Below are positions 7,584-19,642 of a stretch of 64,000 bases of DNA, piece after piece. Source of the stretch: Acidobacteriota bacterium (lineage in GTDB: Bacteria > Acidobacteriota > Terriglobia > Terriglobales > Acidobacteriaceae); NCBI GenBank assembly GCA_021810625.1, contig JAJZIJ010000003.1:1-64000 (forward strand). Direction: 5' to 3'. Positions within the stretch are counted from its first letter, which is position 1, and every line of letters starts with the position of its first letter. The notes beneath the pieces are model-generated. The model searched no databases. It saw nothing but the letters and a program-made list of their open reading frames with translations, and had not been told where the DNA came from. The position numbers and the translations under genes are program-made.

Positions 7584-8653
7584 GCCACAAAAAAAAACAG
7601 GAACATGTCAACCATGAGCGCTGGCTAATCTCCTATGCAGACTTCATTACACTTCTGTTCGCATTTTTTGTCGTGCTGTTTTCCGCCTCGCAATCGGACA
7701 AGAAAAAAGTGCAGAAAGTTGAGTATTCCATCCATTCCGCTTTTCAGACGATGGGTATCTTCCCCATGACCTCCAGTTCTCCAAACTTACAGAGCGTCGG
7801 CGGTGCGCCCAACACGGCCACCGTTATGATGGGGGACGACCTGGATGCCTCTCCAAAAACAATGGCTGATCTGAACAAAATGAAGGCGCAGTTGGACGCG
7901 CTTCTGGCCGCAGAAATCGCCCATCGCACCGTGACCGTGCAGGTTGGACGCGACGGACTCATTATCTCCCTGCGCGCGGCTGGCTTCTTTGAAAGCGCCT
8001 CGGCAACACCGATTCCAGCTTCCATGCACACGCTGCTCGCCATCGGCAGCGCCCTGGCCATCACGCCCTACGACGTTCGCATCGAAGGACACACCGACAA
8101 TATCCCGATCCATAACAGCCAGTATCAATCCAACTGGGAGCTTTCCACCGCGCGCGCCACAGAGCTGGCGCAAATCTTTATTGAGATCAGCCATGTGGTT
8201 CCTTCCCGCCTGTCGGCTGCTGGGTATGCGGAATATCATCCCCTCGCCAGCAATGCAACCGCAGAAGGGCGCAATCGTAATCGGCGCGTGGATATTATTG
8301 TGCTCCCGCATATCAACCACCACGAGGAACTCTGGATGGAAAAGAGCGCTGGAAATACTCCCATAGCAGAACAAAAACGCTCCGCCTCCGCCACCAGCCA
8401 TGCGCTGAAACCTGCATCCGCAACAGAACCGCTCTCATCGCCCGCGCTGTTTACGGCAAAAATCGCTGCGCTGGCAATACAGCCAACACCGATATTCCCG
8501 CCGACATCCTCAGGCAGCCCCACACATGGACGCGCTCCGAGACAGCCGTTCCTGCACTCCATCCACGCAACGCAGACGCGATTTCTCAAGCCCAGCCCGG
8601 AAATACCGTTGTCCTCCATCAGAATCGCGCGCCAACCTGCGACCAGGCCGTAG
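7580..8653 (+). CDS. motB: Flagellar motor stator protein MotB with long C-terminal extension
   Basis: A 357-residue stator subunit. After a basic cytoplasmic start, the single helix SYADFITLLFAFFVVLFSAS contains the ion-binding Asp at residue 21. A plug/linker region follows, then an OmpA-like peptidoglycan-binding domain at about 130-245, with the family motif VRIEGHTDNIPIH, the region NWELSTARATELA and NRRVDIIVLP. About 100 residues then follow that are rich in Pro, Ala and Ser and match no domain I recognise; typical MotB proteins end soon after the OmpA domain. It overlaps motA by 4 bp. Confidence 0.92.
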   Translation: MSHKKKQEHVNHERWLISYADFITLLFAFFVVLFSASQSDKKKVQKVEYSIHSAFQTMGIFPMTSSSPNLQSVGGAPNTATVMMGDDLDASPKTMADLNKMKAQLDALLAAEIAHRTVTVQVGRDGLIISLRAAGFFESASATPIPASMHTLLAIGSALAITPYDVRIEGHTDNIPIHNSQYQSNWELSTARATELAQIFIEISHVVPSRLSAAGYAEYHPLASNATAEGRNRNRRVDIIVLPHINHHEELWMEKSAGNTPIAEQKRSASATSHALKPASATEPLSSPALFTAKIAALAIQPTPIFPPTSSGSPTHGRAPRQPFLHSIHATQTRFLKPSPEIPLSSIRIARQPATRP

Positions 8654-8677
8654 AATAGGACGCAGTGAGTCTCTCCC

Positions 8678-9082
8678 ATGACCGACATTGAATCCGCATC
8701 TCCTGAAGGGAATGCCACACTCCGGCAATCAGCGGAAGACCATTACTACCATGCTGTCGATTGCATTGCCGAGGGCGACTTGGCGGCGGCAATCTCCGCG
8801 TTTCGCGCGTCGCTGGCCTGCGATGCGGAGTTTGAGGATGCGTGGCATGGACTGATTCGCGTGCTGCAAGATGCCGGACACCTCGACGAAGCGGTGATGG
8901 AGGCAAACCGTCTGGCAGAAAAAACGCCAGAGGATGTGTTGGTTCATACGCGGCTTTCCATTCTGTACCAAATGCAGGGGCGGGTTCCAGAGGCAGAGGC
9001 AGAGGCGGCGAAAGCGCGGGTTCTGGGATGGAAGCACGAACTCAAAAACAAAGCGCCGGAAGCAGGCACACCGCAGCCATAG
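8678..9082 (+). CDS. TPR-repeat protein
   Basis: A 134-residue cytoplasmic protein without a signal peptide. It contains about three tetratricopeptide units: HYYHAVDCIAEGDLAAAISA, the DAWHGLIRVLQDAGHLDEAV stretch, and VHTRLSILYQMQGRVPEAE. TPR units mediate protein-protein contacts, so the specific function is unknown. It sits 24 bp after motB and overlaps the start of the endonuclease III-like gene, so the three may be co-transcribed; a link to motility is not shown. Confidence 0.75.
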   Translation: MTDIESASPEGNATLRQSAEDHYYHAVDCIAEGDLAAAISAFRASLACDAEFEDAWHGLIRVLQDAGHLDEAVMEANRLAEKTPEDVLVHTRLSILYQMQGRVPEAEAEAAKARVLGWKHELKNKAPEAGTPQP

Positions 9083-9831
9083 ACGACCCATCGGCATCGC
9101 AAAATGTTGCCGAAGGCTTGCCTGCCGCGCAGGTCTGGGATTCCATCTATGCCGCGCTTTACGCGGCCTATGGCCCTCAACATTGGTGGCCGGCGGAGAC
9201 TCGTTTTGAGATGATCGTGGGCGCGTACCTGACACAGGCCACCTCATGGCGCAGCGTGGAGCGCTCCCTCAACAATTTGCGCGCGGCTGGCTTGCTCAGC
9301 ATTGCTGGCATCCGCCGAACGCCTGAAGAAGAACTGCGGGCCTGGATTCGCCCCTCTGGATTTGCGCAGCGCAAAGCGGCCTCTCTGCATGCCTTTGTTC
9401 GCTTTCTTGATCGGCAGTACAGGGGGTCGCTCAATCAACTGCGCCAGCAACATCCAACGATTGCGCGAGAACAACTTCTCTCGCTGCCGGGCGTTGGCCC
9501 GGAGACTGCGGATGCCATTCTGCTGTACGCGCTCGACCACCCCGCCATTGTCGTCGATGAGTATCTGCGACGTGTCAGCAGGCGGCATGGATTGAGTTCT
9601 GGATTGTCCTCCGGAAAACTTTTCGACGAAAAACTGCGTGATATGGCGGCCCGGATGTTACGGCAGAGGCGGCTGCACAGCACCGAGCGTGAAGATGCCG
9701 GAGAGTTTCACGCTCTGATCGTCGAGGTAGGCAAGCGGCACTGCCGCGCAACGGCTCAATGCGCAGGGTGCCCGCTGGAGAAATTTCTGCCGTCTACAAG
9801 GAGTGGCGCGGAAGTATACGATAAATTCTGA
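9028..9831 (+). CDS. Endonuclease III-related HhH-GPD protein (COG2231-like)
   Basis: A 267-residue base-excision-repair-type protein. It has the HhH-GPD fold: ETRFEMIVGAYLTQATSWRS near the start, the helix-hairpin-helix LPGVGPETADAILLYALD, and the conserved Asp in AIVVDEYLRRVSRRHG. The Lys that makes classical endonuclease III a lyase is absent (GPETAD in place of GRKTA). The C-terminal cluster region shows only three Cys (CRATAQCAGC) where endonuclease III has four. This suggests a monofunctional glycosylase, as in MagIII-type relatives, possibly without an intact [4Fe-4S] cluster. The frame is open upstream to 8842, but that part overlaps the TPR gene; the ATG at 9028 is chosen because the conserved domain starts soon after. 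Confidence 0.75.
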   Translation: MEARTQKQSAGSRHTAAIDDPSASQNVAEGLPAAQVWDSIYAALYAAYGPQHWWPAETRFEMIVGAYLTQATSWRSVERSLNNLRAAGLLSIAGIRRTPEEELRAWIRPSGFAQRKAASLHAFVRFLDRQYRGSLNQLRQQHPTIAREQLLSLPGVGPETADAILLYALDHPAIVVDEYLRRVSRRHGLSSGLSSGKLFDEKLRDMAARMLRQRRLHSTEREDAGEFHALIVEVGKRHCRATAQCAGCPLEKFLPSTRSGAEVYDKF

Positions 9832-9841
9832 CGACCTTTCT

Positions 9842-10462
9842 ATGCCCACGCAACTCCTTGTCGCCACCACCAATGCTGGCAAGCTACGCGATTTTCGCGT
9901 GGCCGCCGCCGCATACGCAGGAGCGTTTTGCATCGACTTCCTCCCGGATATCGACACCATTCCCGCTGCGCCGGAGGAGGGCGCGACCTTTGCGGCAAAT
10001 GCCTGCGGCAAGGCAATTTACTACAGCTATATCGCTCCGGGCTGCATCATTCTGGCGGATGATTCCGGCTTGGAGGTTGATGCGCTTCAAGGCGCTCCCG
10101 GTATCCGTTCGGCGCGTTATGCCGCCGACGCTGGATTTCGTCCAGACCTGCCTGCGGATGCCGCCAACAATTTGCTTCTTCTGGAAACGATGCGGGATGC
10201 GCCCGCTGATTTCCGCGCAGCGCGCTATCGCTGCGTGTTGGCCGCAGCGATGGATGGAAGCATTCTCGCCAGCGCAGAGGGCAAAGTCGAAGGAGAAATT
10301 TTGCGCGAGCCGCGTGGCGTGGGTGGGTTTGGATACGATCCTCTTTTTTATCTGCCCACATTCCATCAAACAATGGCGGAGCTTGACTTGGAAACAAAGC
10401 ATACCATCAGCCATCGCGGACACGCGCTCCGCGCGCTGCTGGCGCTGCTTGGGAACCTCTGA
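9842..10462 (+). CDS. rdgB: XTP/dITP diphosphatase (RdgB/HAM1)
   Basis: A 206-residue house-cleaning pyrophosphatase that hydrolyses dITP, XTP and ITP and keeps deaminated purines out of DNA. Family motifs are the N-terminal TTNAGKLRDF, the metal-binding ILADDSGLEVDAL, GVGGFGYDPLFYLP, and the C-terminal HTISHRGHAL. An in-frame GTG at 9803 overlaps the previous gene; I chose the ATG at 9842 because it gives the usual N-terminus directly before the nucleotide-binding TTN. The last codons (GGAACCTCTGA) coincide with the left end of repeat copy 2. Confidence 0.92.
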   Translation: MPTQLLVATTNAGKLRDFRVAAAAYAGAFCIDFLPDIDTIPAAPEEGATFAANACGKAIYYSYIAPGCIILADDSGLEVDALQGAPGIRSARYAADAGFRPDLPADAANNLLLLETMRDAPADFRAARYRCVLAAAMDGSILASAEGKVEGEILREPRGVGGFGYDPLFYLPTFHQTMAELDLETKHTISHRGHALRALLALLGNL

Positions 10463-10582
10463 AGCGATCTGCGTCGTGAAGGGGCGCGGCTTTAGCCGCG
10501 CCGGACATGCAGCAAAATCAACGCGGGCTTCAGCCCCTGAGGGCAGCTTGCCGCATAAGAACCTGTTCAGCGTTTCCCTTAG
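10452..10582. repeat. MITE-like intergenic repeat, copy 2
   Basis: The left end GGAACCTCTGAA overlaps the rdgB stop; the right end is ACCTGTTCAGCGTTTCC, an approximate inverted copy of it. Inside are the perfect palindrome GGCGCGGCTTTAGCCGCGCC (10483-10502) and GGGCTTCAGCCCCTGAGG, both shared with copy 1. Confidence 0.85.
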
Positions 10583-10626
10583 CACGCACGAATAATCCAA
10601 CATTTTCGCGCATGCCACTGGTTTCC

Positions 10627-10655
10627 TTGACGCGCTGGAATCTGCCTCCGATAAT
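10627..10655 (+). promoter_or_regulatory. Sigma-70-type promoter of sdhCAB
   Basis: TTGACG, a 17-base spacer and GATAAT lie about 90 bp before the sdhC ATG. It is the only good housekeeping promoter match in the spacer. Confidence 0.65.
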
Positions 10656-10747
10656 GAAGGGTTCCTGAATTTCGCATTGCAAGCGCGTCATTACGCCAGA
10701 GCAGGTTCAGCAGCGGTTCGTTCAGCACAGGCAAGGAGCTACACATT

Positions 10748-11515
10748 ATGGCCACGGCCACCAACCCATCCTCCGGCAGCGCTCATCGTGGCGTGCAGCC
10801 TCTTCGCGCCGGACAGGGACATTCGTTTTTACTTCGGAAATTGCACTCGCTCTCCGGCGTGATCCCCATCGGCGCTTTTCTGCTGGAGCATTTCCTCTCC
10901 AACACGGAGGCGTTGAAAGGCCCAGCCGCCTACGCCGCGCAGGTAAAATTTCTCAACAGCCTGCCTTGGGTTCCGGTGCTGGAGTGGGGATTCATCTTTC
11001 TGCCCATCCTCTATCACGCCTGCTACGGCCTCTATATATGGTCGAGCGGAAAGTCGAATATCACCTACTACCCCTGGGCGGGCAACTGGATGTACATGGC
11101 GCAGCGCTGGACGGGGCTGATCGCCTTCGGATACATCGCGCAGCACGTCTACCATCTGCGGTTCAGCGGCGTCCGTCTGGCGGATCATCCTGGCGCTTCC
11201 TTCGCCAAGGTGCATCACGAGCTGGCCAATCCCTGGATGCTTGCCCTCTATCTCGTCGCCATTATTGCGACCAGTTGGCATTTTTCCTACGGACTCTGGC
11301 TCTTCGCCGCCAAGTGGGGCATCACGACCGGCGACAAGGCGCGGCGGCGTTTTGGCTATGTTTGCACGGCGTTGGCGGTTGCGCTCATCACCCTGGGAAT
11401 CGCCAGCGCGCTTGCCTTCCTGAATCCAAAATATAAGTACGGATGGACAGAATCTCCATCCGCGCAAACAACGCAGAGCCAACTCCAAATGCCGATCGTG
11501 GCCGCGTCAAAATAA
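10748..11515 (+). CDS. sdhC: Succinate dehydrogenase cytochrome b558 subunit
   Basis: A 255-residue membrane anchor of succinate:quinone oxidoreductase, of the single-subunit diheme type seen in Bacillus and Bacteroidetes. About five hydrophobic helices are visible, with candidate heme-ligand His residues in LRKLHSLSG, LLEHFLSN, LYHACYGLY, YIAQHVYHLRF and SWHFSYGLWLF. It passes electrons from the SdhB iron-sulfur clusters to the membrane quinone, probably menaquinone given the type. AAGGAG precedes the ATG by 9 bases. It is the first gene of sdhC-sdhA-sdhB, downstream of the promoter at 10627-10655. Confidence 0.92.
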   Translation: MATATNPSSGSAHRGVQPLRAGQGHSFLLRKLHSLSGVIPIGAFLLEHFLSNTEALKGPAAYAAQVKFLNSLPWVPVLEWGFIFLPILYHACYGLYIWSSGKSNITYYPWAGNWMYMAQRWTGLIAFGYIAQHVYHLRFSGVRLADHPGASFAKVHHELANPWMLALYLVAIIATSWHFSYGLWLFAAKWGITTGDKARRRFGYVCTALAVALITLGIASALAFLNPKYKYGWTESPSAQTTQSQLQMPIVAASK

Positions 11516-11556
11516 TGAGCGCGTACAAAAAGTTTTGAAAGAGGACAGAAGAAGTT

Positions 11557-13338
11557 ATGGCGAGTACCCCAAAGATCATTGTGATAGGTGGCGGGCTGGC
11601 GGGATTGTCCGCAGTTATGAAAATTGCCGAGGCCGGGGGCAAGGTCGATCTGTTCTCGATTGTCCCGGTCAAGCGTTCGCACTCCGTGTGCGCGCAGGGC
11701 GGCATCAACGCAGCCAAAAATCTGAAAGGCGAGGGCGACACCACCTGGCAGCACTTTGACGACACGGTCTATGGCGGCGACTTCCTGGGCAATCAGACGC
11801 CGATCAAGGGCATGTGCGAGGCCGCGCCCGCCATCATCGACCTGCTGGATCGCATGGGCGTTCCCTTTAACCGCACGCCGGAAGGGCTGCTTGACTTTCG
11901 CCGCTTTGGCGGCACGCTCTACCACCGCACGGCTTTCGCGGGCGCAACTACCGGACAGCAGTTGCTCTACGCGCTGGATGAGCAGGTGCGCCGCTACGAA
12001 TCCGAAGGCAAGGTTCAGAAATACGAAGGCTGGGAGTTCCTCTCCGCCGTGCTCGACTCCAAAGGGGTCTGTCGCGGCATCTGCGCCATGAACCTGCGCA
12101 CGATGGAGGTTCGCACCTTTGCCGCCGATGCCATCATCCTGGCCACGGGCGGCAATGGAGCCATCTTTGGCAAAAGCACCAACTCCGTTGTCTGCACCGG
12201 ATCGGCGCAGGCTGCGGTCTATCAGCAGGGCGTTTGCTATGCGAATGGCGAGTTCATTCAGGTGCATCCCACCTGCATCCCCGGCGAAGACAAGCTGCGC
12301 CTGATGTCAGAATCTGCGCGCGGCGAAGGGGGCCGCGTCTGGGTGCCAAAGGCCGCTGGCGACAAGCGCGCAGCCAACAGCATTCCGGCATCGGAGCGCT
12401 GGTACTTCCTCGAAGAGTGGTACCCAAAGTACGGCAATCTGGTTCCCCGCGACGTGGCCACGCGGGCGATTCATAAAGTCGTCTACGAACATGGTCTGGG
12501 CATCGACGGCCAGCCAATGGTCTACCTCGACCTGACGCACATCGACCGCGCCACGCTGGATCGCAAGCTGGAGGGCATTCTCGAAATTTACGAGAAATTT
12601 GTTGGCGACGATCCGCGTGAAGTTCCAATGAAAATCTTTCCCGGCATGCACTACACGATGGGCGGCCTGTGGGTCGATGCCGATCAGATGACCAACATCC
12701 CCGGCATTTTTGCCGCAGGCGAGGCCGAATATCAATACCACGGGGCCAATCGGCTGGGAGCCAACTCTCTGCTCTCTTGCATCTACGGTGGCTTTGTTGC
12801 TGGCCCCAAGGCGATGCAGTACGGAAAAAACCTGCAAGCAGCGGAGGGCGATGGCGGTCACACCGCCGAGTTGAAGCGGCAGGAGGAGATCAACCAGCGA
12901 CTGCTGTCCTCCAATGGCGCGGAGAATCCTTTCAAAATTTGGCGGGAACTGGGCGATGTAATGACCAAAAACGCCACCGTCATCCGCTACAACAAGAACC
13001 TGCAAGCAGCGGATGGACAAATCCAGCGACTCCTGGAACGCTACCGCAACATCAACCTCAGCGACAAGAGCATGTGGGCCAACACCAGCTTTGCCTTCAC
13101 GCGGCAACTGCTGAACATGCTGCATCTGGCGCGGGTTATCGTGCAGGGAGCGGAGCGCCGCGACGAATCCCGAGGAGCGCACTACAAACCCGACTTTCCC
13201 GACCGCAACGACGAGAAATTTTTGAAGACGACGAAGGCATTCTTCGCCACCGATACAAACGGCCCGCGCTTTGAATATGAAGCCGTGGACACCCAGTTCA
13301 TTCCGCCGCGTCCACGCAGATACGACGCGGTCAAATAA
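11557..13338 (+). CDS. sdhA: Succinate dehydrogenase/fumarate reductase flavoprotein subunit
   Basis: A 593-residue catalytic subunit that oxidises succinate to fumarate on covalently bound FAD. The dinucleotide-binding motif GGGLAGLSAVMKIAEAGG lies at the N-terminus. The flavin-linking His is in KRSHSVCAQGGINA, the substrate region includes FIQVHPTCIPGEDKLRLMSE, and the second FAD contact is in GLWVDADQMTNIPGIFAAGE followed by HGANRLGANSLLS. Length and motif order are typical of the type-B enzyme that pairs with a cytochrome b558 anchor. It lies 41 bp after sdhC and 21 bp before sdhB in one operon. Confidence 0.95.
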   Translation: MASTPKIIVIGGGLAGLSAVMKIAEAGGKVDLFSIVPVKRSHSVCAQGGINAAKNLKGEGDTTWQHFDDTVYGGDFLGNQTPIKGMCEAAPAIIDLLDRMGVPFNRTPEGLLDFRRFGGTLYHRTAFAGATTGQQLLYALDEQVRRYESEGKVQKYEGWEFLSAVLDSKGVCRGICAMNLRTMEVRTFAADAIILATGGNGAIFGKSTNSVVCTGSAQAAVYQQGVCYANGEFIQVHPTCIPGEDKLRLMSESARGEGGRVWVPKAAGDKRAANSIPASERWYFLEEWYPKYGNLVPRDVATRAIHKVVYEHGLGIDGQPMVYLDLTHIDRATLDRKLEGILEIYEKFVGDDPREVPMKIFPGMHYTMGGLWVDADQMTNIPGIFAAGEAEYQYHGANRLGANSLLSCIYGGFVAGPKAMQYGKNLQAAEGDGGHTAELKRQEEINQRLLSSNGAENPFKIWRELGDVMTKNATVIRYNKNLQAADGQIQRLLERYRNINLSDKSMWANTSFAFTRQLLNMLHLARVIVQGAERRDESRGAHYKPDFPDRNDEKFLKTTKAFFATDTNGPRFEYEAVDTQFIPPRPRRYDAVK

Positions 13339-13359
13339 AGCATCTCTCAGGAAAAAATC

Positions 13360-14109
13360 ATGGCAGAGCGCACAATCAAGGTTGAAATCAAGCGGCAGCA
13401 TGATCCCGATGGCACAGCGGTCGTGGAGAGATTCGAGATCCCCTACCGACCCAATATGAACGTCATCTCCGTGCTGATGGAGATTGCCGCCCGTCCCGTC
13501 ACCGTGGATGGCAAAGAGACCACGCCTGTCACCTACGAATCCAACTGCCTGGAGGAGATTTGCGGCTCCTGCTCCATGCGTATCAATGGCAGGGCGCGCA
13601 TGGCCTGCTCCGCGCTTGTGGATAATCTGGAGCAACCGCTGCGCCTGGAACCACTGTCGAAGTTTCCCGTGGTGCGCGATCTGCAAGTGGATCGCAGCGT
13701 TTTATTTGAGAATCTCAAGCGCGTTCAGGCGTGGGTGCCCATTGATGGCAGCTACGATCTTGGTGCCGGCCCACGCATCACGCCGCAGGCGCAGGAGGAG
13801 AGTTATCCGCTCTCGAACTGCATCTCTTGCTGTTGCTGCATGGAGGTCTGCCCACAATTCAACGTGGCAACAGGCTTTGTTGGCGCGGCCACCATCGCGC
13901 AGGTCAAACTATTCAACGATCATCCGACAGGCAAGGTTCTTAAAGAAGAACGGCTGCACGCGCTGATGGGCGATGGCGGCATCCAGGATTGCTCCTACGC
14001 GCAGAACTGCGTGAAGGCCTGCCCCAAAGAACTGCCGCTCGCCCAAGCCATCTCCGATGTGGGCCGACAGGTGATGGTGCAGGCAGTCAAGGACATCTTC
14101 ACGACCTGA
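13360..14109 (+). CDS. sdhB: Succinate dehydrogenase iron-sulfur subunit
   Basis: A 249-residue electron-transfer subunit. The N-terminal plant-type ferredoxin domain has the [2Fe-2S] cysteines in CLEEICGSCSM and MACSALV. The C-terminal domain has the Cys groups of the [4Fe-4S] and [3Fe-4S] clusters in CISCCCCMEVCPQF and CSYAQNCVKACPKELPL. The run ISCCCCMEVCP has more cysteines than the usual CxxCxxC motif and is typical of the type-B group. It carries electrons from SdhA FAD to SdhC heme, and it ends the operon. Confidence 0.94.
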   Translation: MAERTIKVEIKRQHDPDGTAVVERFEIPYRPNMNVISVLMEIAARPVTVDGKETTPVTYESNCLEEICGSCSMRINGRARMACSALVDNLEQPLRLEPLSKFPVVRDLQVDRSVLFENLKRVQAWVPIDGSYDLGAGPRITPQAQEESYPLSNCISCCCCMEVCPQFNVATGFVGAATIAQVKLFNDHPTGKVLKEERLHALMGDGGIQDCSYAQNCVKACPKELPLAQAISDVGRQVMVQAVKDIFTT

Positions 14110-14664: not shown

Positions 14665-15984
14665 ATGAAGCAAATACTGAGGGTGGCAATTGCTCTGTGT
14701 TTTATCTTTGGATTCGGGCATGCTTACGCTGTTCCGAGTTTCGCGCGGCAGACAGGACTTTCCTGTAATGTCTGTCACAGCAACCCTCCAGAGTTAACGG
14801 CGTTTGGGCGTGATTTCAAGCTGCGGGGCTATGTTCTGACGGATATGACTGCCAAGGACAAGGTGGGCAATAGCAAGGACTTGCTCTTGTCGAAGTACAT
14901 TCCACTCTCGGCCATGATCCTGATCTCAAATACGTCTTACGAAGCCAACCAGCCGGCAAGCCAAAATAACTCAGCGGAATTTCCCCAGCAATTGAGCATA
15001 TTTCTCGCAGGGGCGTTCGCATCGCGCTTTGGTGGATTGGCGCAGTTTACCTATACCCATCAGGACGATCACTTTGGCATGGACAATACAGATTTACGCT
15101 ATGCGAATCAAGGAAAACTCGCGGGAAAAGAATGGACATATGGAATCACGCTCAACAATAGCCCCACAGTGGAAGATGTATGGAATAGTACGCCTTCCTG
15201 GGGATTTCCCTGGATATCGACGGATTCTGGAGTGAGTCCGATTGCAGCACCCATCATCAATGGTGCGTTGGCTCAGGATGTTGCCGGAGTCGGTGGGTAC
15301 AGCATGTGGAATGAGCATCTCTATACCGATGTGACGCTCTATCGTTCGGAACATGCGGGCGGCACAGTTCCGATCACAGGAACCGGATTCGACTACAACA
15401 TCAGCGGGGTTGCTCCGTATTGGCGCGCTGGATGGCAGCAAAACTTTGGGAACAACTATCTTGAGGTGGGAACTTACGGGATTTACGTGAACGCCTATCC
15501 CAATGCAATTTCTGGGCCGGAAAATAGTTATCTGGATCCGTCCTTTGATTTTCAGTACGAGCGTCCATTCGGCACCAATTTGTTGGATGCGCATGGGAGA
15601 TACACGCATGAAGCATCCAATCTTGATGCGTCTTTTGCGGCAGGAGCAGCAACGGAGAAATCAAATTACCTGAACGCATGGGAACTGGATAGCACCTATC
15701 ACTGGAGAAACAAGTACAGCGCGACGGGTTCATTCTTCTCGACGACGGGCAACACGGATCCGCTTCTGTATGCTCCCGCAGCCGTGACCGGAAGCAATAA
15801 TGGAAACCCGGACACCTATGGATACATCGCACAAGGCGGCTATTGGCCAGTACAAAATATTGATATAAGCCTGGCCTATACTGGGTATCTTAAATTTAAT
15901 GGCGCAAGTACAAACTACGATGGTGCCGATCGCAATGCATCCGACAACAATACCGTCTACATGGCCTTGTGGCTGATTTTCTAG
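14665..15984 (+). CDS. Secreted monoheme c-type protein with probable outer-membrane barrel
   Basis: A 439-residue exported protein. A signal peptide covers about residues 1-22 (MKQILRVAIALCFIFGFGHA), and a single heme-binding CNVCH lies at 34-38, followed by PPELTAFGRDFKLRGY. The rest alternates aromatic and polar residues in short strands, as in outer-membrane beta-barrels, and ends in YMALWLIF with a terminal Phe, a common barrel signature. The frame is open to 14554, but the ATG at 14665 starts the signal peptide. It lies 8 bp before the Rieske gene, so it is likely an electron-transfer partner of that complex at the outer membrane or periplasm. The exact role is not established. Confidence 0.7.
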   Translation: MKQILRVAIALCFIFGFGHAYAVPSFARQTGLSCNVCHSNPPELTAFGRDFKLRGYVLTDMTAKDKVGNSKDLLLSKYIPLSAMILISNTSYEANQPASQNNSAEFPQQLSIFLAGAFASRFGGLAQFTYTHQDDHFGMDNTDLRYANQGKLAGKEWTYGITLNNSPTVEDVWNSTPSWGFPWISTDSGVSPIAAPIINGALAQDVAGVGGYSMWNEHLYTDVTLYRSEHAGGTVPITGTGFDYNISGVAPYWRAGWQQNFGNNYLEVGTYGIYVNAYPNAISGPENSYLDPSFDFQYERPFGTNLLDAHGRYTHEASNLDASFAAGAATEKSNYLNAWELDSTYHWRNKYSATGSFFSTTGNTDPLLYAPAAVTGSNNGNPDTYGYIAQGGYWPVQNIDISLAYTGYLKFNGASTNYDGADRNASDNNTVYMALWLIF

Positions 15985-15992
15985 GAGACAAA

Positions 15993-16550
15993 ATGGAAGC
16001 GCAGGAAAAGATTCAGGGAAACGCAAACAATAAAGATGTAATTATTATTAACAGGCGGTCTTTCTTTGGGGTTCTGCTTGGCATCGGTTCTGCTGGCATG
16101 GGCGCGCTGCTGGCAATTCCAGTGCTTCGCTATGTCTTATATCCCCTCTACGCAAAGTCGGGAAAGAACACGTGGACTGCCGTGGGCGACATGGCGGAGT
16201 TTTCCGATTTGTCGAAGCCCATATTAAAACCTCTTGCCCTCAAGCAAGTGGATGGGTGGAGTGAAGTAGATTCCTCTCAGAATGTCTATGTGACCAAGAA
16301 TCCACAAGGCAACCTGGAAGTACTCTCCTCGATCTGCCCCCACTTGGGCTGCATCGTGGACTGGCACAAGGGGCAGAATGAGTTTTTCTGCCCCTGCCAC
16401 GGAAGCGTTTTTAATCCTGATGGAAATCATGTCTCTGGCCCGTCACCACGCGGCCTGGACACGCTTCCGCATAAAATAGTGAACGGAAAACTCATGGTGA
16501 AGTTCGAGTACTTTCGCGAGAATGTTCCCAACCAGGAAGTAGTAGGCTAG
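15993..16550 (+). CDS. Rieske iron-sulfur subunit of a cytochrome bc-type complex
   Basis: A 185-residue quinol-oxidising subunit. One N-terminal membrane helix (RRSFFGVLLGIGSAGMGALL) is followed by a periplasmic Rieske domain. The two [2Fe-2S] motifs are CPHLGCIVDW and CPCHGSVFNPDG, giving two Cys and two His ligands plus the disulfide-type Cys pair. The basic RRSFFGVLL segment resembles a twin-arginine signal anchor. The ATG at 15993 has AGGAGA in front. It lies between the heme barrel gene and the cytochrome b-c fusion, and would hand electrons from quinol at the Qo site to the attached c hemes. Confidence 0.93.
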   Translation: MEAQEKIQGNANNKDVIIINRRSFFGVLLGIGSAGMGALLAIPVLRYVLYPLYAKSGKNTWTAVGDMAEFSDLSKPILKPLALKQVDGWSEVDSSQNVYVTKNPQGNLEVLSSICPHLGCIVDWHKGQNEFFCPCHGSVFNPDGNHVSGPSPRGLDTLPHKIVNGKLMVKFEYFRENVPNQEVVG

Positions 16551-16559
16551 GGGGCCACA

Positions 16560-19148
16560 GTGGATGAACCAGTAAAGGCAGACATGTCGCAGGAAAATAT
16601 CCGATCTAAGAACGTATTCCAGTGGTTCAACCGACGTACTGGCATACGCAGTCTGATGAATGCATCGCTGGATGAACCTATTCCGGGCGGCGCGCGCTTG
16701 GCCTATATATTTGGCTCCGGGCTGCTCTTTATCTTTATCTCTCAGGTCATCACCGGGCTGTGTCTGGCGCTCTACTACGTTCCATCGGCGGAATCCGCCC
16801 ATACCAGCGTCGCCTACATTACCAAGCAGGTGGCAGCCGGGCAATTTCTCCGCAGTCTGCATTACTACGGTTCCAGCGCGATGATCATCGTGCTGGTTCT
16901 GCACTTTCTACAGACCTTCCTCTATGGCTCCTTCAAGGGGCGGCGGGAGTTACTTTGGATATCAGGCGCGTTCCTGTCCTGTCTGGTTCTCGGTATGGGC
17001 TTCACAGGCTATCTTCTCCCGTGGGATCAGAGTTCCTATTTTGCCACGGAAGTAGGAACGAACATCGTTGGAGAAGTTCCATTCATTGGACAATGGCTCA
17101 CAGATATGCTGCGCGGTGGCGACACGCTGGGAACGCTCACGTTGTCGCGCTTTTATTTTGCCCATGTGTTTCTGATTCCAGCAATGATCTTCTTGTTCAT
17201 TGGCATCCACATTGCTCTGTTTCGGAAAGCTGGGCCAGCCGGGCCAATCCATGAAGATCCTATCCATCCGAAACTGCCACCGGAGAGTTTCTATCCTCGG
17301 CAGGTGATCATGGACATGGCATTTGCGCTGCTCCTGATGATCGGTCTCGGATTTCTGGCATACTTCCGTCCTGTACAACTTGGCCCCCTCGCCGATCCTA
17401 CGAACACAAAGTTTATTCCGAGGCCTGAGTGGTATTACCTGCCGATGTTCGAGTGGCTGAAGTTCTGGCCCGGTCGGCTGGAGGTCTTTGCCGTCGTCGC
17501 GATTCCCGGCACTCTGGCTTTGCTGTTTTTCCTGCTGCCATTTTTAGATCGCAAACTGGAACGCAGGCCGTGGCGGAGGCCAATTCCACTCCTTGCCGTC
17601 ACCATCGTTTTAGTCGGAATGATTTTTCTTGGCTTCAAGAGTCACTTGGACGATTTGCGCGACCCTACTGTCGCGGTTCAACTTGCATTCCAGGATAAAC
17701 AGGCGGAGGAATATACGAAGGCCCCATTCCATCCCCGCATGGAATCTGCGAATGGGGAGCCTCTGCCGTCTGGGCCTGTCAATCCTCTGGTTGCCAAGGG
17801 GAAGGGAATTTTTGATTCCAAGGGATGTTCTGGATGTCACGGAGACAAAGGTACGGGTACGGCTGTTGCTCCCAGCCTTGTCGGAATTACAACCAAGTAT
17901 CCCTTGCCCCAGCTTACTGACTTACTGCATCATCCCAATCCGCAGATGCTGGCTGGGCACATGCCTTCGTTCGATCTGTCCGACCCAGACATGGCGGCAC
18001 TGTTTAGCTATCTGGGCAGCTTAGGTACAAGTGGCGGAAGCGCGCCTGCACCGACACCCAGCGCGCCGACACCCAGTGGGGCAGCGCCTCCGCCTGCCAC
18101 GCCGCCTGCCGCTGCCGCGCCTGCGCCAGACAAATCTGCACCAGCCAAACCGGGAGCATCCTCTGCTGCGGCCCAGGCGGGCGGAAAGATATTTCAAGCG
18201 CATGGGTGTTTCGCCTGTCATGGGCCGGCAGGCGCGGGAACAGCAATCGCTCCGCCCCTGGCAGGATTAGTTGCAGGGCTATCAGATCAGCAGCTATCAA
18301 AACTGCTGCATCATCCCAACGCGAAGATGAGCGCTGGAGGGATGCCTGCTTTCACTGGATCGCCGAAGCAGGAGAGTTCTCTTATCGCCTACATTCGCAG
18401 TCTCGCTCCAGCGAAACAGGCTGCGACCAAGAAAAAATCTAACTCACCCGCCGCGCCTGGGAAGCAGGCGGCAACCGCTTCGAGCGCCACTCCGCCCGCC
18501 GCACCACCTGCTGCCGCCGCGCCTGCATCGGCCAAACCTGCGCCAGCCAAACCGGGAGCATCCTCTGCTGCGGCCCAGGCGGGCGAAAAGATATTTCAAG
18601 CGCATGGGTGTTCCGCCTGTCATGGGTCGGCAGGCGTGGGAACAGCAATCGCTCCGCCCCTAGCAGGCTTGGTTGCAGGCCTGTCGGATCAGCAGCTATC
18701 GAAACTGCTGCATCATCCCAACGCGAAGATGAGCGCTGGAGGGATGCCTGCTTTTACTGGATCGCCGAAGCAGGAGAGTTCTCTTATCGCCTACATTCGC
18801 AGTCTGGGAACGGCACCAGCAGGAGGTGCTACGCCAGCAGCCAAGGCAGGTGCTCGACCAGCAAGCACGAAGCCGCCCAGCGCAGAAGTGCTGCGAGGTA
18901 AGAAGATTTTCCAGCGCGCCTCTTGCGAATCCTGCCACGGGGTTGGAGGTTTGCATGGCACGGTGGCCGCTCCGGGATTGGCAGGAACCGCTTCCATGCT
19001 TCCGGCCTCAACGCTGGAGAACCTGTTGCGGCATCATAGCGCACAAATGCAAAATGGAGGCATGCCGCTGACCAATATGAATGCGCCGGATATGAAAGCG
19101 ATCGTGGCCTACATTCGCTCCTTGCCTGCCCACGCAACCGGACAATAA
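16560..19148 (+). CDS. Cytochrome b fused to four c-type cytochrome domains
   Basis: An 862-residue fusion. Residues 1 to about 390 are a full cytochrome b. The heme-b His pairs are in SLHYYGSSAMIIVLVLH (13 residues between) and AHVFLIPAMIFLFIGIH (14 between, as in cytochrome b6), and the Qo motif PEWY is in RPEWYYLPMF. Four c-type heme domains follow with CSGCH at 423, CFACH at 550, CSACH at 684 and CESCH at 789, joined by Pro/Ala linkers. Each has a downstream Met-containing GHMPSF or GGMPAF motif that could provide the second axial ligand. Domains 2 and 3 are a recent duplication. The GTG start has GGGGG before it and lies 9 bp after the Rieske stop. The fused arm should replace a separate cytochrome c1 and carry electrons to an oxidase or outward. 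Confidence 0.93.
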   Translation: MDEPVKADMSQENIRSKNVFQWFNRRTGIRSLMNASLDEPIPGGARLAYIFGSGLLFIFISQVITGLCLALYYVPSAESAHTSVAYITKQVAAGQFLRSLHYYGSSAMIIVLVLHFLQTFLYGSFKGRRELLWISGAFLSCLVLGMGFTGYLLPWDQSSYFATEVGTNIVGEVPFIGQWLTDMLRGGDTLGTLTLSRFYFAHVFLIPAMIFLFIGIHIALFRKAGPAGPIHEDPIHPKLPPESFYPRQVIMDMAFALLLMIGLGFLAYFRPVQLGPLADPTNTKFIPRPEWYYLPMFEWLKFWPGRLEVFAVVAIPGTLALLFFLLPFLDRKLERRPWRRPIPLLAVTIVLVGMIFLGFKSHLDDLRDPTVAVQLAFQDKQAEEYTKAPFHPRMESANGEPLPSGPVNPLVAKGKGIFDSKGCSGCHGDKGTGTAVAPSLVGITTKYPLPQLTDLLHHPNPQMLAGHMPSFDLSDPDMAALFSYLGSLGTSGGSAPAPTPSAPTPSGAAPPPATPPAAAAPAPDKSAPAKPGASSAAAQAGGKIFQAHGCFACHGPAGAGTAIAPPLAGLVAGLSDQQLSKLLHHPNAKMSAGGMPAFTGSPKQESSLIAYIRSLAPAKQAATKKKSNSPAAPGKQAATASSATPPAAPPAAAAPASAKPAPAKPGASSAAAQAGEKIFQAHGCSACHGSAGVGTAIAPPLAGLVAGLSDQQLSKLLHHPNAKMSAGGMPAFTGSPKQESSLIAYIRSLGTAPAGGATPAAKAGARPASTKPPSAEVLRGKKIFQRASCESCHGVGGLHGTVAAPGLAGTASMLPASTLENLLRHHSAQMQNGGMPLTNMNAPDMKAIVAYIRSLPAHATGQ
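18141..18805 (+). repeat. Direct duplication of a heme-domain segment inside the cytochrome fusion
   Basis: Bases 18141-18403 and 18543-18805 align without gaps at an offset of 402 bp, exactly 134 codons, with only about a dozen differences. The copies encode heme domains 2 and 3 and part of their Ala/Pro linkers. Confidence 0.9.
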
Positions 19149-19237
19149 TGGCGGATGGGAATCGACCCCCAAGTGGATTTGCGCTTCTTCTGAGCGAAGC
19201 GCGCGCCATAGCAGGTCGTAGCCTCTACACTGGGAGT

Positions 19238-19642
19238 ATGTGTGGATGGTTCTCTCTGAAACGAAATCCGGCTGTGTTGGCCTGCCTGATGTTGACTTTT
19301 TTTATTACACTCGCGGGCTGCCGCTCCCGCTCCCCTTACGTGCAGACCACACTGCTCAACGAAGGCGCAACGACGGTGCAAAATATCGAAGTGGATTATC
19401 CCAGCGCCAGTTTTGGCGTCTCCAGCCTGGAACCGGGCCGCAGCTTCATGTATCGCTTCCAGATTCAGGGATCGGGGCACCTGCAATTGCTCTATGTGGA
19501 CAGCGCTCATCACGCCCATAGCGAGACTGGCCCCTACGTTGCCGAAGGACAGGAAGGCACACTGCGAATCGCCATCGGCAGCGCAGGGAAAAATATGTGG
19601 ACAATGCAGTTGACGCCGCAGGTAACGACACCGAAAAAATAA
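19238..19642 (+). CDS. Small putative lipoprotein
   Basis: A 134-residue protein starting MCGWFSLKRNPAVLACLMLT, with a lipobox LAGC whose Cys is residue 28, so it should be lipid-anchored. The mature part (YVQTTLLNEGATTVQNIEVD, then SSLEPGRSFMYRFQIQGSG) looks like a compact beta-sandwich. I recognise no named family. The frame is open to 19148, directly after the cytochrome gene, but the ATG at 19238 gives the lipoprotein signal. It follows the respiratory operon by 89 bp and is convergent with the next gene. Confidence 0.65.
   Translation: MCGWFSLKRNPAVLACLMLTFFITLAGCRSRSPYVQTTLLNEGATTVQNIEVDYPSASFGVSSLEPGRSFMYRFQIQGSGHLQLLYVDSAHHAHSETGPYVAEGQEGTLRIAIGSAGKNMWTMQLTPQVTTPKK

Follow-up and report, generated by a model that had tools for sequence, protein, structure and literature searches.

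The window that we have analyzed, a stretch of 64,000 nucleotides from an acidobacterial genome, encodes a cytochrome b that runs on in the same chain into four class-I cytochrome c domains carried on flexible linkers, in a conserved operon with a Rieske protein and a Cyc2-like cytochrome-porin. This multi-heme fusion is a variant of the Rieske/cytochrome b complexes, and is widespread in one clade. The architecture and synteny are firm. Our reasoned hypothesis for the function, to which we give about an even chance, is that the operon specifies a b6-type Rieske/cytochrome b quinol oxidoreductase whose tethered-diffusion c arm exchanges electrons with the porin, flow outward to Fe(III) being the favored direction.

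For Fe(III) reduction by acidophiles it is poorly understood how electrons travel between the quinone pool and extracellular iron, and in the literature searched we found no conduit named for the Fe(III)-reducing acidophilic Acidobacteria. The three-gene block is a concrete candidate, carried by a cultured type strain, and it brings together bc complexes, tethered-diffusion cytochromes and Cyc2-like porins, ideas that have hitherto been apart. The features of the block are as follows.

14665–15984, + strand: Cyc2-like cytochrome-porin of 439 amino acids with a signal sequence and a barrel of about 16 strands (motif, AF2 model and porin matches)
15993–16550, + strand: Rieske [2Fe-2S] protein, CPHLGC...CPCH, likely start ATG 15993 within the open reading frame 15969–16550 (PF00355, E = 5e-11)
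16560–19148, + strand: cytochrome b and four cytochrome c domains in one chain of 862 amino acids (one open reading frame; Pfam matches)
16593–17660, + strand: b6-type cytochrome b part, H101/H115, H202/H217, PEWY 289–292, seven predicted transmembrane helices, no heme ci Cys
17790–18023, + strand: c domain 1, CSGCH, codons from 17826 (place of PF00034 match in the genome search; motif)
18174–18404, + strand: c domain 2, CFACH, codons from 18207 (PF00034; motif; 92% DNA identity to domain 3)
18573–18806, + strand: c domain 3, CSACH, codons from 18609, a recent copy of domain 2 or converted by it (PF00034; motif)
18894–19124, + strand: c domain 4, CESCH, codons from 18924 (PF00034; motif)
18024–18893, + strand: stretch with three Ala/Pro-rich linkers of about 49, 56 and 27 amino acids, between domains 1-2, 2-3 and 3-4 (length, composition, pLDDT)
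19148–19642, + strand: small protein, possibly with a lipoprotein signal, whose gene overlaps the stop codon of the fusion gene; uncertain member of the operon (BLAST matches in the operon in the congener only)

The fusion protein and its heme arm

The first-pass annotation had read a full cytochrome b, with two His pairs and PEWY, continuing in frame into four CXXCH domains. This is borne out by a single uninterrupted open reading frame of 862 codons on the + strand, which starts with GTG (an in-frame ATG lies at 16584). Residues 39–361 of the protein match cytochrome b (PF00033, Cytochrome_B, E = 9e-47; PF00032, Cytochrom_B_C, E = 1e-7), and four C-terminal stretches match Cytochrom_C (PF00034, E = 4e-41), far beyond chance. 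A genome profile search found this to be the sole PF00032 match in the window genome. A stop or frameshift between the two parts, against which the annotation had cautioned, is not seen, and the same fusion is found again in dozens of assemblies made independently, as well as in a cultured strain, Acidipila rosea DSM 103428 (L092), which has the barrel and Rieske genes along with a four-heme fusion. An assembly artefact was rejected because c domains 2 and 3 differ from one another and orthologues recur in these genomes. The 862-residue fusion is real.

The four heme-ligating histidines of the cytochrome b part are invariant. The spacing of the first pair is 14 residues and that of the second is 15, the wider, b6-type value, while the Qo motif PEWY is that of a bc-complex cytochrome b. 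The best PDB sequence matches are to cytochrome b6, and together with the histidine spacing they support the b6-like ancestry that had been suggested. The protein nevertheless departs from b6f proper, in that the heme ci-binding Cys aligns with Ile, and a single chain with class-I c domains takes the place of separate b6 and subunit IV with cytochrome f. Hydropathy indicates seven membrane segments, in groups of four and three; with a cytoplasmic N terminus, the c domains would sit in the periplasm.

The CXXCH motifs lie at residues 423, 550, 684 and 789, each followed some 40 residues further on by a methionine in an M(..)GGMP or GHMP context. Among the homologues this Met is kept in 205 of 206 domains, the lone exception (L113) being on a truncated contig. 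The linkers of the multi-heme homologues are always kept; they vary from 25 to 82 amino acids, and are 30% Ala and 17% Pro. An AF2 model of the whole fusion was poor (pLDDT 53.7, pTM 0.25, from a shallow alignment) and served only for the contrast between domains and linkers, with pLDDT of about 26–35 between the c domains against 60–88 inside them. By sequence and by pLDDT the arm thus has the monoheme domains and long flexible linkers of a PgcA-type tethered-diffusion cytochrome.

Domains 2 and 3 of the window protein are 92% identical in DNA over 323 bp, which we read as a recent local duplication or conversion. Similar signs of duplication or conversion of these domains are present in the window (0.93), L130 (0.91), L135 (0.91), and L121 and L125 (0.79), while the congener (G001) has three c domains. 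The number of domains among the homologues ranges from one to five, and thus appears to be fluid through local recombination. Domain 3 of L081 looks chimeric, with its first half resembling its own domain 2 and its second half domain 3 of L082, as would be expected for gene conversion between heme domains.

Could the extra domains be a neutral repeat expansion, generated by slippage or unequal recombination and with no special role beyond that of the first domain? The variation in number, the recent events at domains 2 and 3 and the three-domain congener are what such a process would leave behind. Against this, proteins of 58–76% identity retain domain 4 and the plan of four domains, the methionine and the linkers are conserved as described above, and multiplication appears to have arisen more than once. 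We therefore regard neutral expansion as very improbable.

The cytochrome-porin and the conserved operon

The Rieske protein has both of its cluster-binding motifs, CPHLGC and CPCHGS, as in the Rieske proteins of bc complexes, and its gene adjoins cytochrome b in nearly all loci. In the window the barrel and Rieske genes lie directly upstream of the fusion gene in the same orientation. The barrel adjoins, together with the Rieske gene, in all 45 loci with at least three hemes and enough flanking sequence. The order is barrel-Rieske-cytochrome b in 44 of these; in L132 the barrel is directly downstream. A barrel is found upstream in 5 of 23 one-heme loci, and none was detected near L122 and L131, which fall inside the multi-heme clade and have fewer hemes. 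No other neighbor of the multi-heme fusion is as constant. Since the barrel pore is always encoded beside the fusion, electrons may cross the envelope directly. In the window (10748–14109) and the congener, the operon is immediately preceded by the succinate dehydrogenase genes sdhC, sdhA and sdhB, which were not observed in this place in the other loci.

A small cytochrome c gene lies near many one-heme loci, and rarely near the multi-heme ones. We do not claim that the tethered arm has replaced a soluble cytochrome c, because a similar small c is still encoded at another place in the window genome (contig C49).

The barrel had been described as a heme-carrying one. Heme and barrel stand, but the protein is not generic, for it fits a published diagnostic of the Cyc2-like fused cytochrome-porins: AXPXFAR[Q/K][T/Y] before a single CXXCH, PXL after it, a length of at least 365 amino acids and 16 strands (PMC8406198). 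The window protein reads AVPSFARQT-GLS-CNVCH-SNP-PEL, with one heme motif in 439 residues. The motif is present in strict form in 50 of 65 barrel homologues, and as a near-match in most of the others. An AF2 model built with 37 homologues is of moderate quality (mean pLDDT 75.8, with low confidence around the heme) and has the requisite number of strands, about 16; its structural matches are outer-membrane porins with TM-scores of about 0.45–0.6, including OprO, the relative named for Cyc2 (PMC8406198). Searched by sequence, the barrel had no match in the PDB, and no model in Pfam or NCBIfam matched it. We predict that it is located in the outer membrane. The characterized Cyc2 proteins are Fe(II) oxidases (PMC8406198); the Cyc2-like porins are a large family of mostly uncharacterized members, and iron is the presumed substrate of the window barrel.

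Of 200 genomes sampled from the taxonomic family, 46 have a member of the barrel family. A degenerate DNA pattern found the AXPXFAR[K/Q]Y-type motif spread through the phylum; Thr at the last motif position falls outside this pattern, and so therefore does the window barrel. The window genome contains a second Cyc2-like cytochrome-porin (G000:C59, L187, 5196–6761; AIPAFARKY...CATCH...PEL), followed after one intervening gene by a hexaheme string of c domains (8192–10213; 674 amino acids, six CXXCH) and then a monoheme protein (10126–10791), possibly a further extracellular electron transfer cluster. A third porin-like protein (G000:C27, L191, 4342–6402) has an N-terminal AIPAYARRY...CYACH; its neighbor is a diheme cytochrome c. 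It is a recurrent feature of this genome that proteins with heme regions of this kind adjoin multi-domain c cytochromes.

Distribution and history of the heme domains

The first-pass annotation proposed a search for C-terminal runs of three or more CXXCH domains. Among the 80 closest loci, in data with one genome per species, we find 36 intact four-heme versions and 5 five-heme ones. It noted that bc complexes normally have a separate cytochrome c1 or f; in these bacteria, however, a cytochrome b joined to a c domain is in itself nothing unusual. The one-heme fusion is the common form in the bacterial class, with relatives 55–65% identical to the window protein; in L185 it lies within a relative's bc1/caa3 superoperon, beside a COX1 gene. 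A diheme fusion (Kuste3096-3097) is known from an anammox bacterium, in a paper that describes such fusions as frequent in gram-positive bacteria (PMC12954380). Joining cytochrome b to one c domain is ordinary in the class, and what is new is the increase to three to five tethered domains. The annotation would have been undercut had its architecture been standard for the phylum, and that is half the case: the one-heme fusion is standard in these genomes, whereas the four- to five-heme form is confined to one Acidobacteriaceae clade and a small group that is apparently separate. We found no description of a cytochrome b-c fusion with four to five domains in the open-access literature searched, which does not prove that there is none.

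In a maximum-likelihood tree of the cytochrome b part, all the multi-heme proteins included form one clade (98/94 support); L130, L133 and L135 are not in this tree. The clade also holds the intact one-heme L131 and the intact two-heme L122, which are best read as secondary losses. The near-identical internal domains of L130 and L135 (0.91) suggest a separate expansion. This natural series of one, two, three, four and five hemes offers a ready test of arm length against electron transfer over the envelope. Many of the loci come from metagenome-assembled genomes (MAGs) with isolate labels that we take to denote acid-mine samples.

Comparison with the congener reveals a mosaic. The sdh genes and domains 3-4 are about 93% identical in DNA, the barrel and its upstream region 81–93%. 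Over most of 16.2–18.1 kb (Rieske, cytochrome b and c domain 1) identity to the congener (L064/L111) is 63–79%, against about 81–95% in the flanks, and in the Rieske-cytochrome b-c domain 1 segment the window is nearer to L081/L082 (78–90%, up to about 18.0 kb). Provided that neither MAG contig is chimeric, the pattern suggests that the core enzyme has been exchanged by recombination while the end of the arm and the barrel stayed. A chimeric contig is the alternative account of the 63–79% segment at 16000–18100.

Other fusions were seen further afield. In other Acidobacteriota lineages (L192, L193, L194, L195 and L196) cytochrome b is fused to a closely spaced region of 8–11 CXXCH motifs, cytochrome c7/c3-like in Pfam; these are of a different kind, and apparently convergent. 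Four MAGs labeled Bacteroidota, Ignavibacteriae or Kapaibacterium (L134, L145, L151, L160) have a one-heme fusion and a Rieske gene. In three of these a distant homologue of the barrel is close by, and so the association of barrel and fusion may be older than the phylum or have been transferred. L148, from a MAG labeled Planctomycetota, is a clearly acidobacterial barrel-Rieske-cytochrome b contig with cytochrome b 80% identical; the label is likely to reflect misbinning.

Possible electron routes and comparison with known systems

In this complex the c-type subunit and cytochrome b form one covalent chain, and the former has multiplied to give the four linked domains. In the mechanism that we propose, quinol would be oxidized at the Qo site and one electron would pass via the Rieske protein to c domain 1, to be handed along the other domains by tethered diffusion in the manner of PgcA. 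The arm would span the periplasm, touch the outer-membrane porin of the same operon and exchange electrons with its heme. Net flow would most plausibly be outward, to soluble Fe(III) at low pH. The iron couple lies at about +770 mV at pH 2 (PMC8406198), and it would therefore be thermodynamically sensible for Fe(III) respiration to use a chain of high potential with Met ligands, supplied by a proton-translocating bc complex. Among acidophilic Acidobacteria, Fe(III) is reduced by Acidicapsa ferrireducens and Acidobacterium capsulatum, for example (PMC8790237).

An electron route to the barrel or to an oxidase had been suggested from the first reading. The link to the barrel is upheld by its conserved adjacency, while a route straight to an oxidase has less in its favor: the window genome (2.45 Mb, 99% complete) has a single heme-copper oxidase, encoded in an ACIII-caa3 superoperon on a different contig (C22). 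This encodes a pentaheme ActA-like protein, an Fe-S ActB-like protein, NrfD/ActC, ActD, a monoheme ActE-like protein, COX2 with a c domain, COX1 and COX3. A second, weak COX1 match in the genome is NnrS and not an oxidase, and no bd oxidase was found there.

The arm might still be a tethered stand-in for soluble cytochrome c that feeds caa3, as diheme QcrC serves aa3 in actinobacteria, with the barrel co-regulated but separate. The one-heme homologues are candidates for an ordinary complex III, many with the small cytochrome c gene nearby, and acidobacterial bc1-caa3 superoperons have been described (PMC8407424). The window genome has a small soluble cytochrome c and a caa3 with its own c domain, so that diffusion to the oxidase is possible. 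However, the oxidase sits with ACIII, the constant neighbor of the fusion is the barrel and no oxidase, and the relatives G009 and G326 retain a second cytochrome b near a COX1 gene. We consider this role improbable, if worth keeping in view.

Because the characterized Cyc2 proteins oxidize Fe(II), electrons may flow in either direction. Run inward, the porin would oxidize Fe(II) and the arm would collect the electrons, with the bc complex reversed to reduce quinone uphill, or with the arm feeding caa3. Reverse bc1 is the accepted uphill branch in Acidithiobacillus (PMC8790237), the oxidase is present, and relative G326 has a RuBisCO-family gene. Yet no RuBisCO was found in the window genome or in most of the relatives searched, and those relatives that the literature names are Fe(III)-reducing heterotrophs (PMC8790237). 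Inward flow is thus unlikely in our judgment.

The outward wire draws on the constant adjacency of the barrel, the Cyc2-like diagnostic, the linkers, the separate ACIII-caa3 chain, the other pairings of porin with multi-heme proteins and the RuBisCO result. Weighing against it are the Fe(II)-oxidizing activity of characterized Cyc2, the small soluble c with caa3, the barrel-less L122 and L131, and the low model confidence around the porin heme. We would go further, though with rather less than even confidence, and suggest a quinol-oxidizing complex hard-wired across the periplasm, in which a covalently tethered c string joins the Q cycle of the inner membrane to a porin of the outer membrane, as a three-gene, energy-conserving conduit tuned to the potential of iron at low pH.

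How does this arrangement compare with known systems? The one-heme fusion complexes of the Terriglobia likewise have cytochrome b and c in one chain and an adjoining Rieske gene. They and Kuste3096-3097 carry one or two c hemes, whereas in the window type there are three to five, on tethered domains, and the neighboring cytochrome-porin is conserved. In the Bacillus-type QcrABC, subunit IV is fused to cytochrome c. Both this complex and the b6f of cyanobacteria and plants resemble the window protein in b6-type histidine spacing, three helices in the C-terminal half and a c domain after them; the window protein differs in joining b6 and subunit IV in one chain, and in having neither the heme ci Cys nor cytochrome f.

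Tethered diffusion has been demonstrated for PgcA of Geobacter sulfurreducens, which extends up to 180 Å (PMC11520253) and, like the window arm, holds monoheme c domains apart on long flexible linkers. Whereas PgcA is free in the extracellular space and its linkers are PT-rich, the window string is fused to a quinol oxidoreductase and its linkers are A/P-rich. We suggest that the arm works in a similar way, and claim no homology. The barrel shares the heme-region motif, single heme, length, approximately 16 strands and OprO-like fold of the Cyc2-like porins (PMC8406198), but its operon partner is a Rieske/cytochrome b complex. Lastly, the bc cluster GSU2930-2937 of Geobacter, the proposed quinol-oxidation site of a metal-reducing bacterium (PMC2825233), also has several c hemes in addition to cytochrome b and Rieske. 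In Geobacter these hemes are carried by distinct multiheme proteins, whereas those of the window are on tethered class-I domains within the cytochrome b chain itself.
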